Source: Bacteroidota bacterium (lineage in GTDB: Bacteria; Bacteroidota; Bacteroidia; B-17B0; Aurantibacillaceae). From it: a stretch of 50,972 nt of DNA. The stretch is taken from positions 1-50,972 of the forward strand of contig SYAL01000016.1 of assembly GCA_005787585.1 (NCBI GenBank). The letters are read 5' to 3'. Shown piece by piece: positions 43,645 through 50,972 of the stretch (positions within the stretch are counted from its first letter, which is position 1; each line of letters starts with the position of its first letter). The position numbers and the translations under genes were made by a program. Below the pieces are notes generated by a model. The model ran no database searches, was not told the origin of the DNA, and saw only the letters and a list, made by a program, of their open reading frames with translations.

Positions 43645-45705
43645 TTATTCTTCTTCTTCTTCAGTTTTTGGTTTATTCGTTTTTATTGGAGTTTTTGGTG
43701 CATTTACATCTACATAATTAAAATTAAGCACTTTAAATTCTGTTCTTCTATTTTTTTGGTGTAATGCATCTTTTTCTTCTTTTGATTTTGCTGCTTTGAT
43801 TAAATCATCTGTAACTATTAGTTTTGTTTGACCAAATCCTTTTGCAATTAATCTAGCAGCAGGAATATTTTTTTCATTTACTAAATAATCAACGCAAGAT
43901 TGAGCACGAGCTTCAGATAAGGTGAAATTAGAAGCAGCTTTACCCTGATTATCTGTGTGTGCACTTAATTCGCAAACAATCGTAGGATTATCTTTTAAAA
44001 TATTGAATAAATAATTTAATGAGTCTTTTGATTCAGGTAACAATTCTGCGCTACCCAATGCATATTGAATCTCTGGCATTCTCAAATCAGGCACAACCGG
44101 TTTAACAAAAAAATCAGCCTTAAATTCTTTTGAATGATCTTCGCCAACAGTTTGAAAAAAACGATGGTCTTTATTTGCTAAGTATCCATCTTTGGCAAAA
44201 GAAGCAGATTTTGATGATTTACTAGTTTCTGTTGAAACCGTGTAGGTTGTTTTTTCTTTTAATTTGAAAAAATAAGAACCATCTTTTCCAGTTGTTGATT
44301 CGCTTATTGTACCATCGCTACCTATTATTACTACCTTTACTAATTCAACTGGCTCGTTTTTGCCTTTACCTGTTTTTGAGTCACCTTCACAAAACACATT
44401 TCCTTTACCAGAAAACACTAATGCTGGTAAATTAAAACCCCAAATATCATCGTCACCTTTTCCACCTTCACGATTACTTGTAAAAAATCCTTTTTGTTTT
44501 TTTCCTTCAAAAATTAAACTAAAGTCGTCAAAAGCAGAGTTAATAGGCGCTTTCATATTTTCTGCATGTTTAGTAAATCTACCATCAGTACCAGCTTCGG
44601 CTTCAAAAATATCTAAACCACCTAATCCAGGATGATAATCAGAAGAAAAATATAAATGCTTACCATCATCTGATAAAGTAGGGAAAACTTCATTACCAGA
44701 AGTATTAACTTCTGGTCCAGCATTTTTTAATTGACCCCATAAATTGTTTTTAACATCAAATGTACAACTCCAAATATCAGCCCCGCCATATCCACCTGCT
44801 TTTCTAGAGGATAAATACAATGTTTTACCATCTGAAGATAAACATGGGTGGCCAAACTGAATGGTATCATTATTAAAAGGAAGTAATTCAGCATTTCCCC
44901 AAGTACTGCCTTGTTTTTTGGCCATATATAATCCACATCTACTTTTTTTACCTTTAGATTCAGGACATCTTGTAAAGAAAATCATGTCTCCTTTTTTACT
45001 TACCCAGGGTTGCCCTTCGTTTACTTCTGTTGAAATTGAAGGAGGTAACAAAACAGGTGTTGACCATTTTAAATTTTTATCAACTTTTGTTTCGTAAATA
45101 TCCGATTTATTTTTTCCTGTTGTTATATCTATATCTCCCAAACTACCTTCTCTATTTGAAGAAAAAACAATTGTTTTATTACTTTTATCACTAAAAGAGG
45201 CGCAATAATCTCGAGCTTTTGAATTAATTAAGGTCATATTCTCAATTTTATATCGAGTAGGATTTTCAGAATATTTTTTTGCTAGTTGACAAGAGGATAT
45301 CCCCCTGTCAGCTTTTTTTGCTTCTCCACCCTTTGTTTTGTAATTTTTATATTCTATGATTGATTCATCGTATTTTGATTCAATTTTTAAAACTTCGGCT
45401 AATTTTAAGAATACCACAGGTTCAATATAATTTTCTTTAATCGCTTTTTGATAATAGCTTTCTGCTTCCTTATAATCATTTATTTCTTGACTGGCTTCGC
45501 CTGCTCTGAAGAAAATATAGCCTTTAATTTCATCAGAAGAACCCGATAAAGCTTGTTTGTATAATGTAATTGCAGAAAAATACTCGTGATTTTCGAAAGC
45601 TTCGTCTGCTTTTACAAGATTTTTATTCTTTTTTTGGGAAACCCCTGAAAAAGATAATATTAAAGACAAAAAAGTTATTAAAAATTGTTTGATTAGTGTT
45701 TTCAT
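43645..45705 (-). CDS. TPR-PD40-CRD-OmpA protein, PorE-like T9SS component
   Basis: A 686-residue exported protein with four regions: signal peptide (~1-24), TPR repeats (~28-150), PD40/WD40-like beta-propeller (~165-420; repeats such as HPCLSSDGKTLYLSSRKAGG and FPTLSDDGKHLYFSSDYHPG), a carboxypeptidase regulatory-like domain (~440-520) and a C-terminal OmpA domain (~545-660; ELSAHTDNQGK, LSEARAQSCVDYLV, RRTEFKVL) that binds peptidoglycan. An acidic EEEEE tail ends the protein. This order matches PorE of the type IX secretion system, which anchors the machinery to peptidoglycan. Other OmpA/TPR paralogues share it, so the symbol is withheld. Confidence 0.85.
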   Translation of the reverse strand: MKTLIKQFLITFLSLILSFSGVSQKKNKNLVKADEAFENHEYFSAITLYKQALSGSSDEIKGYIFFRAGEASQEINDYKEAESYYQKAIKENYIEPVVFLKLAEVLKIESKYDESIIEYKNYKTKGGEAKKADRGISSCQLAKKYSENPTRYKIENMTLINSKARDYCASFSDKSNKTIVFSSNREGSLGDIDITTGKNKSDIYETKVDKNLKWSTPVLLPPSISTEVNEGQPWVSKKGDMIFFTRCPESKGKKSRCGLYMAKKQGSTWGNAELLPFNNDTIQFGHPCLSSDGKTLYLSSRKAGGYGGADIWSCTFDVKNNLWGQLKNAGPEVNTSGNEVFPTLSDDGKHLYFSSDYHPGLGGLDIFEAEAGTDGRFTKHAENMKAPINSAFDDFSLIFEGKKQKGFFTSNREGGKGDDDIWGFNLPALVFSGKGNVFCEGDSKTGKGKNEPVELVKVVIIGSDGTISESTTGKDGSYFFKLKEKTTYTVSTETSKSSKSASFAKDGYLANKDHRFFQTVGEDHSKEFKADFFVKPVVPDLRMPEIQYALGSAELLPESKDSLNYLFNILKDNPTIVCELSAHTDNQGKAASNFTLSEARAQSCVDYLVNEKNIPAARLIAKGFGQTKLIVTDDLIKAAKSKEEKDALHQKNRRTEFKVLNFNYVDVNAPKTPIKTNKPKTEEEEE

Positions 45706-47727: not shown

Positions 47728-47735
47728 TATATTTG
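47728..47735 (+). promoter_or_regulatory. TAnnTTTG -7 box of the cobalamin riboswitch unit (TATATTTG)
   Basis: A perfect consensus ending three bases before the first pairing base of the riboswitch (47739). This position fixes the likely transcription start near 47739-47742 and calibrates the other boxes in the window. Confidence 0.65.
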
Positions 47736-47738
47736 TGT

Positions 47739-47903
47739 TGCAATTGGTTCTTTTTTAAACAAAAGATTAATAGGGAATAGTGTGAAATTCACTAATAGTA
47801 CCCGCTGCTGTGAGTCCTTTTAATAGCTTAAACATTCAAATGCCACTGATTATTCGGGAAGGTAGTTTTAAGCAAGGATAAGTCAGAAGACCTGCCAAAT
47901 GCA
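47739..47903 (+). ncRNA. Cobalamin (adenosylcobalamin-type) riboswitch
   Basis: The conserved elements appear in order: the closing stem TGCAATTGG (47739-47747) with CCAAATGCA (47895-47903), GGGAA then GTGTGAAATTCAC, CCCGCTGCTGTGAG, GCCACTG, CGGGAAGGT and the B12 box AAGTCAGAAGACCTGCC (about 47880-47896). These match the class that binds cobalamin and turns off B12-uptake genes. The 57 bases between the aptamer and the TTG start show no convincing terminator, so control of translation start is the likelier mode. Confidence 0.93.
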
Positions 47904-47960
47904 TTAATGTTAACGGTTTTCGGGAATTGAAACAAAAGACGTAATTAGTTTTTCAAATAA

Positions 47961-49886
47961 TTGAAATTAAAAACAAATAAGCATTTTGCTTGCTTAAACA
48001 ATTTTTATATTGTTTATTTTTTATTGTTTATGATAGTTAGTATCAAAGACTATTATTCTCAAGATACCACATTACTTAAAACTGTAGAAGTAATTACTCT
48101 TAAAGAAAATATTTCTCAAATCGGAAAAAAAATAGAACCCATCGATTCAATCATAAAACAACAATTCAAATTTAACTCGGTAGCGGATTTATTAAATTTA
48201 AACTCAAGTATTTTCATTAAGAATTACGGTCCAGGTGGTCTTTCAACATCCGCTTTTAGAGGAGGTAATGCATCGCAAACGGCTATTTTATGGAACGGCT
48301 TAAATATTCAAAATGCAATGCTTGGTCAATGCGACTTAGCATTGATGCCTAATTTACTTTTTGAAAATATAGAAATAGAATATGGTGGATCTTCATCAAT
48401 ATGGGGAAGTGGAGCAGTTGGAGGTAGTTTACACCTAAATAATAAATTAGAGTTTAATAAAGGATTTCAGATTAATACCAATATCGGTAGTGGCAGTTTT
48501 GGCTTGTTTAATTTCGCATCTAATTTATTATTAAGTAATAAAAGAGTTGCTTCATCAATTAAGTTTTACAGAACTTCCAGTGAAAATAATTTTACCTATA
48601 TAGATCCTTTTAATAATAGCAATGATTTAATAGTTCAAAAGAATGCTGCTTATAATTTTAATGGTTTAATGCAAGAGTTTAAAGTATTAATCAATCCAAA
48701 ACAAATTTTAACTATTAACACCTGGTTTAATTATAATCAAAGAAATTTACCTAGTTATTTTGAAAGTATTCAAAAAAAACGGCAACAATCAGATATTTCT
48801 TCACGCATTATTGCTAACTGGGTTTATTTTAAATCAAAAATAAGATGTTCAATTAAAGCTGCGATTTTTAATGATTACATTAATTATAATGATAGTTCAG
48901 CAGAAATATTTTCTAAAAGTAAATCACAAACTATTCTTATCGAAAATGAAAATTATTATAATTGGAAAAGTCGTCATGATTTTTATTTTGGTGTAAATAT
49001 GTCATTTAATCAAGCTTTTATCAGAAACTACGAATCCATAAAATATTTAAATAAAATATCTTTTTTAATTGGAAATAAGTTTTCTTTTTTAAATAGTAAA
49101 CTAATTTCTAATATTTCTGCCCGTGCAGAATATTTTAGTATTGGAACCTTACCTTTTACTGGGGGAGCGGCATTTGAATATCGTTTATTTGAACCAATTT
49201 CATTAATTTTTAATGCTGCTAAAGTTTATCGCCAACCAACATTAAACGAATTATATTGGATGCCCGGTGGAAATAATAATTTAAAAGCTGAACAGGGTCT
49301 TACTTTCGAGGGTGGGGCAAATTATAAAAAACAATTAAATAACTTATTGTTCCAAATTACTGGAGCGCTTTATAGTAGAGATATTAGAAATTGGATTTTG
49401 TGGATTCCTGCTCAAAATGGCACTTCGTCGGCTACTAATATTCAAAATGTATGGAGTAGAGGTTCAGAAACCACTTTAAAATTAAATTATAAAAAAAATA
49501 TAATTAAAATTGGTTCCAGTATAATGGCTTCTTATGTTTTATCAACTATTCAATCAAGTAAACAAGAAAATAATAATACCCTAAATAAACAGTTAATTTA
49601 TACTCCACGTTATTTGTTAAACTCAAATTTATCGGTTGGAATAAATAATATTTATTTCATTTTCTATCATCAATATACAGGTTATCGTTTCACAACAAGC
49701 GATAATTCCCATTGGCTAATACCCTATCAAGTATCTTCATGTAGATTAAATTATGTATTCGATATAAAAAAAATAAATTTATCTGTATTTGTCTCTTGTA
49801 ATAATTTATTTAATCAAAATTATTTTATTATTGCTGGACGACCAATGCCATTAAAGAATTACGAATTCGGAATTTCAATCAAATAA
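47961..49886 (+). CDS. btuB: BtuB-like TonB-dependent outer-membrane receptor
   Basis: A 641-residue receptor. The signal peptide is only complete from the TTG start at 47961 (hydrophobic FYIVYFLLFMIVSI, cleavage near YYSQ); the ATG at 48030 would cut into it. The plug domain (~40-165) has SVADLLNLNS, GLSTSAFRGGNASQTAILWNG and IEIEYGGSSSIWGSGAVGGSL. The rest is a 22-strand-type barrel with VYRQPTLNELYWMPGGNNNLK, a typical late-barrel region. The riboswitch directly upstream makes cobalamin or another cobamide the expected ligand. No BtuFCD genes are visible before the join at ~50858. Confidence 0.9.
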   Translation: MKLKTNKHFACLNNFYIVYFLLFMIVSIKDYYSQDTTLLKTVEVITLKENISQIGKKIEPIDSIIKQQFKFNSVADLLNLNSSIFIKNYGPGGLSTSAFRGGNASQTAILWNGLNIQNAMLGQCDLALMPNLLFENIEIEYGGSSSIWGSGAVGGSLHLNNKLEFNKGFQINTNIGSGSFGLFNFASNLLLSNKRVASSIKFYRTSSENNFTYIDPFNNSNDLIVQKNAAYNFNGLMQEFKVLINPKQILTINTWFNYNQRNLPSYFESIQKKRQQSDISSRIIANWVYFKSKIRCSIKAAIFNDYINYNDSSAEIFSKSKSQTILIENENYYNWKSRHDFYFGVNMSFNQAFIRNYESIKYLNKISFLIGNKFSFLNSKLISNISARAEYFSIGTLPFTGGAAFEYRLFEPISLIFNAAKVYRQPTLNELYWMPGGNNNLKAEQGLTFEGGANYKKQLNNLLFQITGALYSRDIRNWILWIPAQNGTSSATNIQNVWSRGSETTLKLNYKKNIIKIGSSIMASYVLSTIQSSKQENNNTLNKQLIYTPRYLLNSNLSVGINNIYFIFYHQYTGYRFTTSDNSHWLIPYQVSSCRLNYVFDIKKINLSVFVSCNNLFNQNYFIIAGRPMPLKNYEFGISIK

Positions 49887-49909
49887 ATATAAAACCAAAA
49901 AACAATATC

Positions 49910-50857
49910 ATGAAAAAAATTAAAATTATTTTATCATTATCTTTAGTTGCTTTTGCTTTAAAATCACAAACAACCGTAATTGATTTTGAAACATATACAC
50001 TTTCTACTAATTCTGCTTATTCTAGCTCAATGAGTATTCCTTTTCAAAATAATAATGTTTCATTTCAGTATAAGTGGAACGCAGCATTTAATTATTGGAG
50101 TGGAGGTTTTTCGTATACAAATAAATATGATTCATCAACTGTTGGATTTGGAAATTTATACGGTGTGAAACCATTCAAAGGTTATAATAACTCTAACATC
50201 TATGTTATCGGTAAAGATGGTGGTGTTATAAATTTAGGTGCAACTTCAAATACTGTAAATGGTTTTTATATAACAAATTCTACATATGCATACAAATCGA
50301 TGAAGCTTGGCGATTCTTTTGCTAAGAAATTTGGAGGTATTAGTGGCAATGACCCTGATTATTTTAAATTAACAGTTAAAGGTTTTAAATCTGGTATTTT
50401 AAAATCAGACAGTGTTAATTTTTACTTAGCTGATTATCGTTTTGCTAATAATTCTCTAGACTATATAGTTAATAATTGGCAGTGGGTAAATACATCTAGT
50501 TTAGGTGATGTTGATAGTATCAAATTTTTTATGTATTCGAGTGATATTGGTAATTTTGGTATAAATACACCACAATTTTTTGGTATGGATAATTTTACAA
50601 TTACTCAAACAATAGTTGGACTTAATGAAAATACAAATGATCATAAATTTAATGTTTATCCAAATCCATGTTATAATCTATTATCAATTGAAACAGATAA
50701 AGTAAATCAATCATCAATTAATATTTCAGATTTAAGTGGAAAAATTATTTATCACCAAAAATTAAATTTTATGCAAACAATATTAGATGTAAATTCATTA
50801 GAATCGGGAAATTATTTATTAGAAATACTTTCTGACAATAAAAAAATAATTAAAAAG
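49910..50857 (+). CDS. DUF4465 surface protein with T9SS sorting domain (3' end lost at a chimeric join)
   Basis: About 316 residues before the join. A signal peptide (1-20, FALKSQ) and a DUF4465 domain (~22-235; VIDFETYTL, NYWSGGFSYTNKYD, FYITNSTYAYKSMKLGD, QFFGMDNFTI) are followed by a type A T9SS C-terminal domain with VYPNP (~249-253) and LESGNYLLEI near its end. It should be exported through T9SS to the cell surface. It follows the receptor by 23 bases, so it shares the cobalamin riboswitch. A role in binding cobamides for the receptor is inference. The gene has no stop: the low-GC frame runs into high-GC DNA a few codons before the expected end. Confidence 0.85.
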
Positions 50858-50972
50858 GTGCTGCTCATGGACGAGCCCTTCGTGGGCCTGGACTACGCGC
50901 GGCGGGCCACGCTGCACCAGGTCCTGCTCGACCTGTGGGAGCGCTCGCGCCCGACGGTCTTCTTCGTCACGC
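50858..50972 (+). other. Foreign high-GC DNA: ABC-transporter ATPase fragment
   Basis: The last ~115 bases contain about 71% G+C against ~29% for the rest. Read in the frame of the preceding gene they give VLLMDEPFVGLD, an ABC ATPase Walker B and D-loop, then a stretch ending RPTVFFVT, the strand before the H-loop of nitrate/sulfonate/taurine-type importers. The sequence starts in mid-domain without a Walker A. This is best read as an assembly join or contaminating fragment from a high-GC organism. Confidence 0.85.

Follow-up and report, generated by a model that had tools for sequence, protein, structure and literature searches.

A conserved, probable B12 uptake operon behind a cobalamin riboswitch

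We identified a predicted B12-controlled uptake operon at the right end of a 50,972-nucleotide contig (C7, SYAL01000016.1) from a Bacteroidota bacterium (assembly GCA_005787585.1, 73% complete); the entire contig is the window analyzed here. Computational analysis placed a TAnnTTTG promoter box, a cobalamin riboswitch, a btuB-like gene, and a btuJ-like gene on the + strand in that order (Table 1), the last of these encoding a DUF4465 protein with the family and fold of known B12 binders and a sorting tail of the type IX secretion system (T9SS), and found the unit conserved across related genomes. It is highly probable that this is a cobalamin-repressed outer membrane B12 uptake operon, whose T9SS-exported BtuJ-type protein would capture cobamide and hand it to BtuB-BtuG. 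The operon is of an already described kind and the finding is genuine but largely known, with modest new points in the export route, a Tyr-to-Phe change, and a companion protein family.

A preliminary description, made from the sequence of this DNA alone, had proposed that a canonical promoter, a cobalamin riboswitch, a TonB receptor, and a DUF4465 protein bearing a T9SS sorting domain form 1 unit, and all of these were borne out except for part of the promoter. The riboswitch matched the RF00174 covariance model over its full length (104.9 bits, E 2.6e-25, gathering score 31.5); it was the sole Rfam match within the window and the only cobalamin riboswitch detected across the 73%-complete genome. 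For the promoter, the -7 box was recovered: among 95 homologous riboswitches, 77 have TAnnTTTG close to their start, usually at offset 0 or -1, compared with 0-7 of ~95 in shifted control windows, whereas a -33 element was not established at the operon.

The receptor has Plug and TonB_dep_Rec (beta-barrel) domains by profile, and its best solved relatives are the BtuB proteins of Bacteroides thetaiotaomicron (8bmx, 8p98, and 8p97, E ~1e-50). It is 84% identical to its counterpart at the related locus L116, and both begin with TTG. The proteobacterial BtuB equivalog (NCBIfam TIGR01779) gave 62.7 bits, below its cut-off of 599.7, and we assign the receptor by sequence as a BtuB homolog outside that equivalog.

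Table 1. Coordinates of the operon features and of the contig end in the window
Feature	Position	Strand	Evidence
Bacteroidota -7 promoter box (TAnnTTTG), TATATTTG	47728..47735	+	near 77/95 homologous riboswitches
Cobalamin riboswitch aptamer (RF00174)	47728..47913	+	104.9 bits, positions 1-189 of 189
btuB-like TonB-dependent receptor gene, 641 amino acids, TTG start	47961..49886	+	Plug + TonB_dep_Rec; PDB matches
btuJ-like gene encoding a signal peptide, DUF4465, and a T9SS type A sorting domain; its own stop codon is absent from the contig	49910..50857	+	
DUF4465 (BtuJ) predicted B12-binding domain, residues 59-229	50084..50596	+	profile; model Z 26.5 to 9qpm
Por_Secre_tail (T9SS type A sorting domain), residues 249-316, final few residues absent	50654..50857	+	
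Chimeric contig end, 70% GC, ABC-ATPase-like, outside the operon	50858..50972	.	

Family and fold of the DUF4465 protein

The btuJ-like gene starts 23 nucleotides after the receptor gene, and a signal peptide was read from the sequence of its product. The DUF4465 domain scored 141.7 bits against PF14717 (curated cut-off 25) and matched B12-bound BtuJ1 (E 2e-23) and D5EK51 (E 6.5e-15) by sequence. An AlphaFold model of the protein (mean predicted local distance difference test [pLDDT] score 71.7) aligned to BtuJ1 (9qpm) with Z 26.5 and a root-mean-square deviation of 1.9 over 205 residues, to D5EK51 (9hmu_A) with Z 24.5, and to BtuJ2 with Z 20.6, the next unrelated structure scoring Z 9.2; Foldseek matched the model to BtuJ-type structures at E 8e-16. 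The augmented beta-jellyroll fold of BtuJ1 and D5EK51 is present in the modeled window protein, and the B12-contacting helix tyrosine Y146 of BtuJ1 is kept there and in 73 of 82 members from the host's order.

DUF4465 (IPR027828) is the BtuJ family, and 2 papers report that BtuJ1 and BtuJ2 of B. thetaiotaomicron (BT_1491 and BT_1957) bind B12 tightly and are encoded in riboswitch-controlled operons (PMC12751083) and that 6 more distant members, 1 of them from Fluviicola, also bind B12 (PMC13398666). In all, 8 B12-binding DUF4465 proteins have been published, with family structures 9FCT, 9I2L, and 9HMU (PMC12751083, PMC13398666). The preliminary description had regarded the function of this class as unassigned, which these reports contradict; its proposal of a T9SS-exported cobamide binder agrees with the family, predicted fold, and sorting tail found here. 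By analogy with the published members, cobamide capture by the window protein is very likely.

Variant architectures of the family were also seen, with a tandem double DUF4465 before a single T9SS tail at 7 loci (L047, L053, L054, L056, L058, L059, and L060) and a long N-terminal region ahead of DUF4465, by its appearance a candidate beta-propeller, at L042 and L049.

Conservation of the unit across genomes

The association of DUF4465 genes with cobalamin riboswitches and BtuB was searched for in 87 genomes of the host's order, holding 84 DUF4465 copies, and in a second set of 36 loci obtained by sequence similarity search of genome contigs and partly identical to the order-set loci. DUF4465 was found in 80 of the 87 order genomes, compared with 9 of 395 that passed the cut-off when the phylum was sampled evenly. 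In the order, a same-strand cobalamin riboswitch precedes 69 of the 84 copies by 0.5-3.4 kb, the median distance of 2183 bp corresponding to 1 btuB gene, and 12 of the remaining 15 are too near a contig end to judge. A BtuB-like gene was directly upstream of DUF4465 in 70 of 81 order loci, and a riboswitch was identified at 32 of the 36 similarity-found loci. The association that the preliminary description had suggested checking is strong in the order.

Sorting tail and export machinery

The C-terminal tail scored above the cut-offs of both Por_Secre_tail (45.3 bits, cut-off 27) and TIGR04183 (41.3 bits, cut-off 23), and in the model it resembles the solved T9SS C-terminal domains 8glk, 8qb1, and 5m11 (Z 8-9). 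A T9SS tail was found in 78 of 79 scanned DUF4465 proteins of the order and in 32 of 34 from the similarity-found set, and a lipobox was missing from 80 of 81 order proteins. The tail of the window protein lacks its last few residues, because foreign sequence takes over at the contig end.

The DUF4465 reading frame continues off the contig end, where the guanine plus cytosine (GC) content rises from 17% in the 115 nucleotides before ~50858 to 70% in the 115 nucleotides after it, in a contig of 29% GC overall; no other 112-nucleotide window before 50800 exceeds 50% GC. The appended ~115 nucleotides read as an ABC ATPase fragment (KKVLLMDEPFVGLDYARRA; VLLMDEPFVGLD). At L032, the same locus as L116, an 85% identical relative is an intact protein of 320 amino acids with an intact T9SS tail and the C-terminus KKIIKN. 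The foreign GC content together with the intact relative identifies the contig end as chimeric and shows that the tail lost just its last few residues, and a DUF4465-ABC ATPase fusion suggested by the open frame was ruled out on the same evidence.

The host genome carries genes assigned by homology to T9SS machinery. It encodes a full-length PorU sortase (1240 bits), and 61 T9SS tail domains were counted in it. Further, a gene of the PorE family (TPR, PD40, and OmpA domains; 43645-45705, - strand) lies in the window near the B12 operon, a few genes away, with a score of 445.8 bits that is under its cut-off of 600.

Cargo of T9SS type A may be released as well as anchored, and it is possible, though on balance doubtful, that, once outside the cell, the DUF4465 protein is set free and works at a distance like a siderophore, as a cobamide scavenger or public-good carrier and not as a surface partner of BtuB. 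The near-universal lack of a lipobox in the order and the presence of PorU, which cleaves such tails, are consistent with release, and BtuJ of B. thetaiotaomicron acts on extracellular vesicles that its authors likened to siderophores (PMC12751083). However, PorU is also able to attach cargo to the surface, and co-transcription with btuB and a BtuG-like lid suggests local hand-over.

BtuG-like partner and proposed mechanism

In relatives, the next gene of the operon encodes a DUF5074 beta-propeller lipoprotein that is a BtuG homolog (E 1e-51 to 8bmx_D), located at L116 ~40 nucleotides after the DUF4465 gene. The DUF5074 gene of the host was found at the extreme end of another contig, C56, which begins within the first codons of the gene, and the gene that follows it is the same as in L116. 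The likely operon order is riboswitch, btuB, btuJ, and btuG, split by an assembly gap. The preliminary description had cast the DUF4465 protein as an alternative to BtuG, and this role was ruled out because a BtuG-like gene belongs to the operon in relatives; BtuJ probably adds to BtuG and does not replace it.

In the proposed mechanism, scarce intracellular B12 would relieve riboswitch repression, so that BtuB, BtuJ, and BtuG are made. A signal peptide would take the BtuJ-type protein across the inner membrane, and the T9SS would take it across the outer one; outside the cell the protein would capture cobamide and pass it to BtuB with its BtuG lipoprotein lid, and BtuB would import the cobamide using TonB energy. 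Capture and hand-over are proposed here by analogy with B. thetaiotaomicron, and B12 binding, riboswitch repression, and BtuB-BtuG transport by analogy with published members.

Several observations weigh against this mechanism. That C7 continues into C56 is a conclusion drawn from relatives. A search for the SprA translocon in the 73%-complete genome gave no match, but control genomes gave none either, so this search is uninformative either way. Three order copies of DUF4465 have sufficient upstream sequence and yet no riboswitch, as would be expected if the adjacency were accidental and the DUF4465 protein had no part in B12 uptake. However, with ~1.5 riboswitches per genome of 3-4 Mb, a chance neighbor is expected in well under 1% of cases, compared with the 69 of 84 copies that lie behind a riboswitch; conservation of the unit refutes accidental adjacency as a general statement and leaves it with a negligible probability.

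The remaining point concerns the ligand. Tyr245 of BtuJ1, a B12 contact, is called universal in PMC12751083 and 97% conserved in PMC13398666. The corresponding residue is Phe223 in the window protein (NTPQFF), and 65 of 82 order members, the window protein included and spread over most genera, have this change, by which 1 hydroxyl contact would be lost. Ligand preference may have shifted, and riboswitch control does not fix the identity of the transported cobamide; import of another corrinoid or tetrapyrrole (B12 precursors or other cobamides) in place of B12 by the receptor and the DUF4465 protein is nevertheless unlikely. We retain B12 uptake with hand-over to BtuB-BtuG as the preferred reading.

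Companion family with a T9SS tail

We identified a companion family of ~230 amino acids plus a T9SS tail in 79 of the 87 order genomes, at 80 places, and also at L089:4877-5851, L083:5033-6010, and L168:4550-5533. In 23 of the 80 order copies the companion gene comes directly after DUF4465 within the operon, and another 38 have a cobalamin riboswitch of their own 40-413 bp upstream; at several loci the companion is fused to DUF4465. The host's own companion gene is on another contig, and no riboswitch was detected upstream of it. Distant relatives across the phylum adjoin BtuB-like and BtuG-like genes.

With the tail excluded, sequence searches of Pfam, NCBIfam, and the PDB gave no match to the companion family, and neither did a profile search against solved structures. 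A model of the companion (mean pLDDT 70) aligned to the B12-binding domain of BtuH2 (7biz) with Z 11.2 over 151 residues and to the BtuH part of BtuG1 (8blw_B) with Z 10.1, followed by unrelated CBM32 domains at Z 7.9. The model makes a BtuH-like, T9SS-exported protein the probable identity of the family. A common fold is no proof of B12 binding.

Related arrangements were observed at other loci. On a contig filed as Rhodocyclaceae (L062:2469-4148), a PEP-CTERM-tailed companion and a PEP-CTERM-tailed DUF4465 are adjacent behind a cobalamin riboswitch, the same pair with a different sorting signal. At L169:3804-4190 and L171:3595-4830, a gene for a cysteine-rich CWC protein separates the companion gene from a cobalamin riboswitch, or is in one frame with the companion.

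We tentatively propose, as an idea that could well prove wrong, that in the order and in other Bacteroidota both BtuJ and the BtuH-like companion are T9SS-exported, with the BtuG lid as the sole lipoprotein, and make up a cobamide-scavenging layer, secreted or sugar-anchored, in which the companion would be a new branch of B12 binders.

Comparison with known systems

The basic picture of B12 uptake is unchanged by these findings. They indicate that environmental Bacteroidota widely use the B12-capture proteins known from gut Bacteroides but export them by the T9SS, that the Tyr-to-Phe change offers a direct test of the role of a hallmark residue, and that the companion family is a nameless candidate B12 binder.

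We take IPR026444 to be the T9SS tail domain and IPR013424 to be PEP-CTERM. In the family census, 229 of 824 members have IPR026444 and 88 have IPR013424, termed C-terminal extracellular targeting motifs (PMC12751083). T9SS-tailed DUF4465 proteins are already published as over a quarter of the family in that paper, with the same domain architecture as the window protein, which is 1 more member. The accessible portions of PMC12751083 and PMC13398666 contain no operon-level account of this subset, and a literature search on T9SS, BtuB, and riboswitches together returned no relevant paper.

The two subunits of the BtuBG transporters (8bmx, 8p97, 8p98, and 8blw) have homologs here in the receptor and the BtuG-like lipoprotein, although overall identity is low; the host proteins may likewise form a complex. 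The companion family of related operons, located outside the window, matches BtuH2 (7biz) by model in the fold of its B12-binding domain but has a T9SS tail and no detectable sequence similarity to it. With BtuJ1 and BtuJ2 of B. thetaiotaomicron, the window protein shares the domain family, the predicted fold, Y146, and a cobalamin-riboswitch operon with BtuB and probably BtuG, whereas it has Phe at Tyr245 and the host genus has no BtuH in the same operon. The difference from the B. thetaiotaomicron system lies mainly in the export route, with a T9SS sorting tail in place of the lipoprotein signal and anchor.
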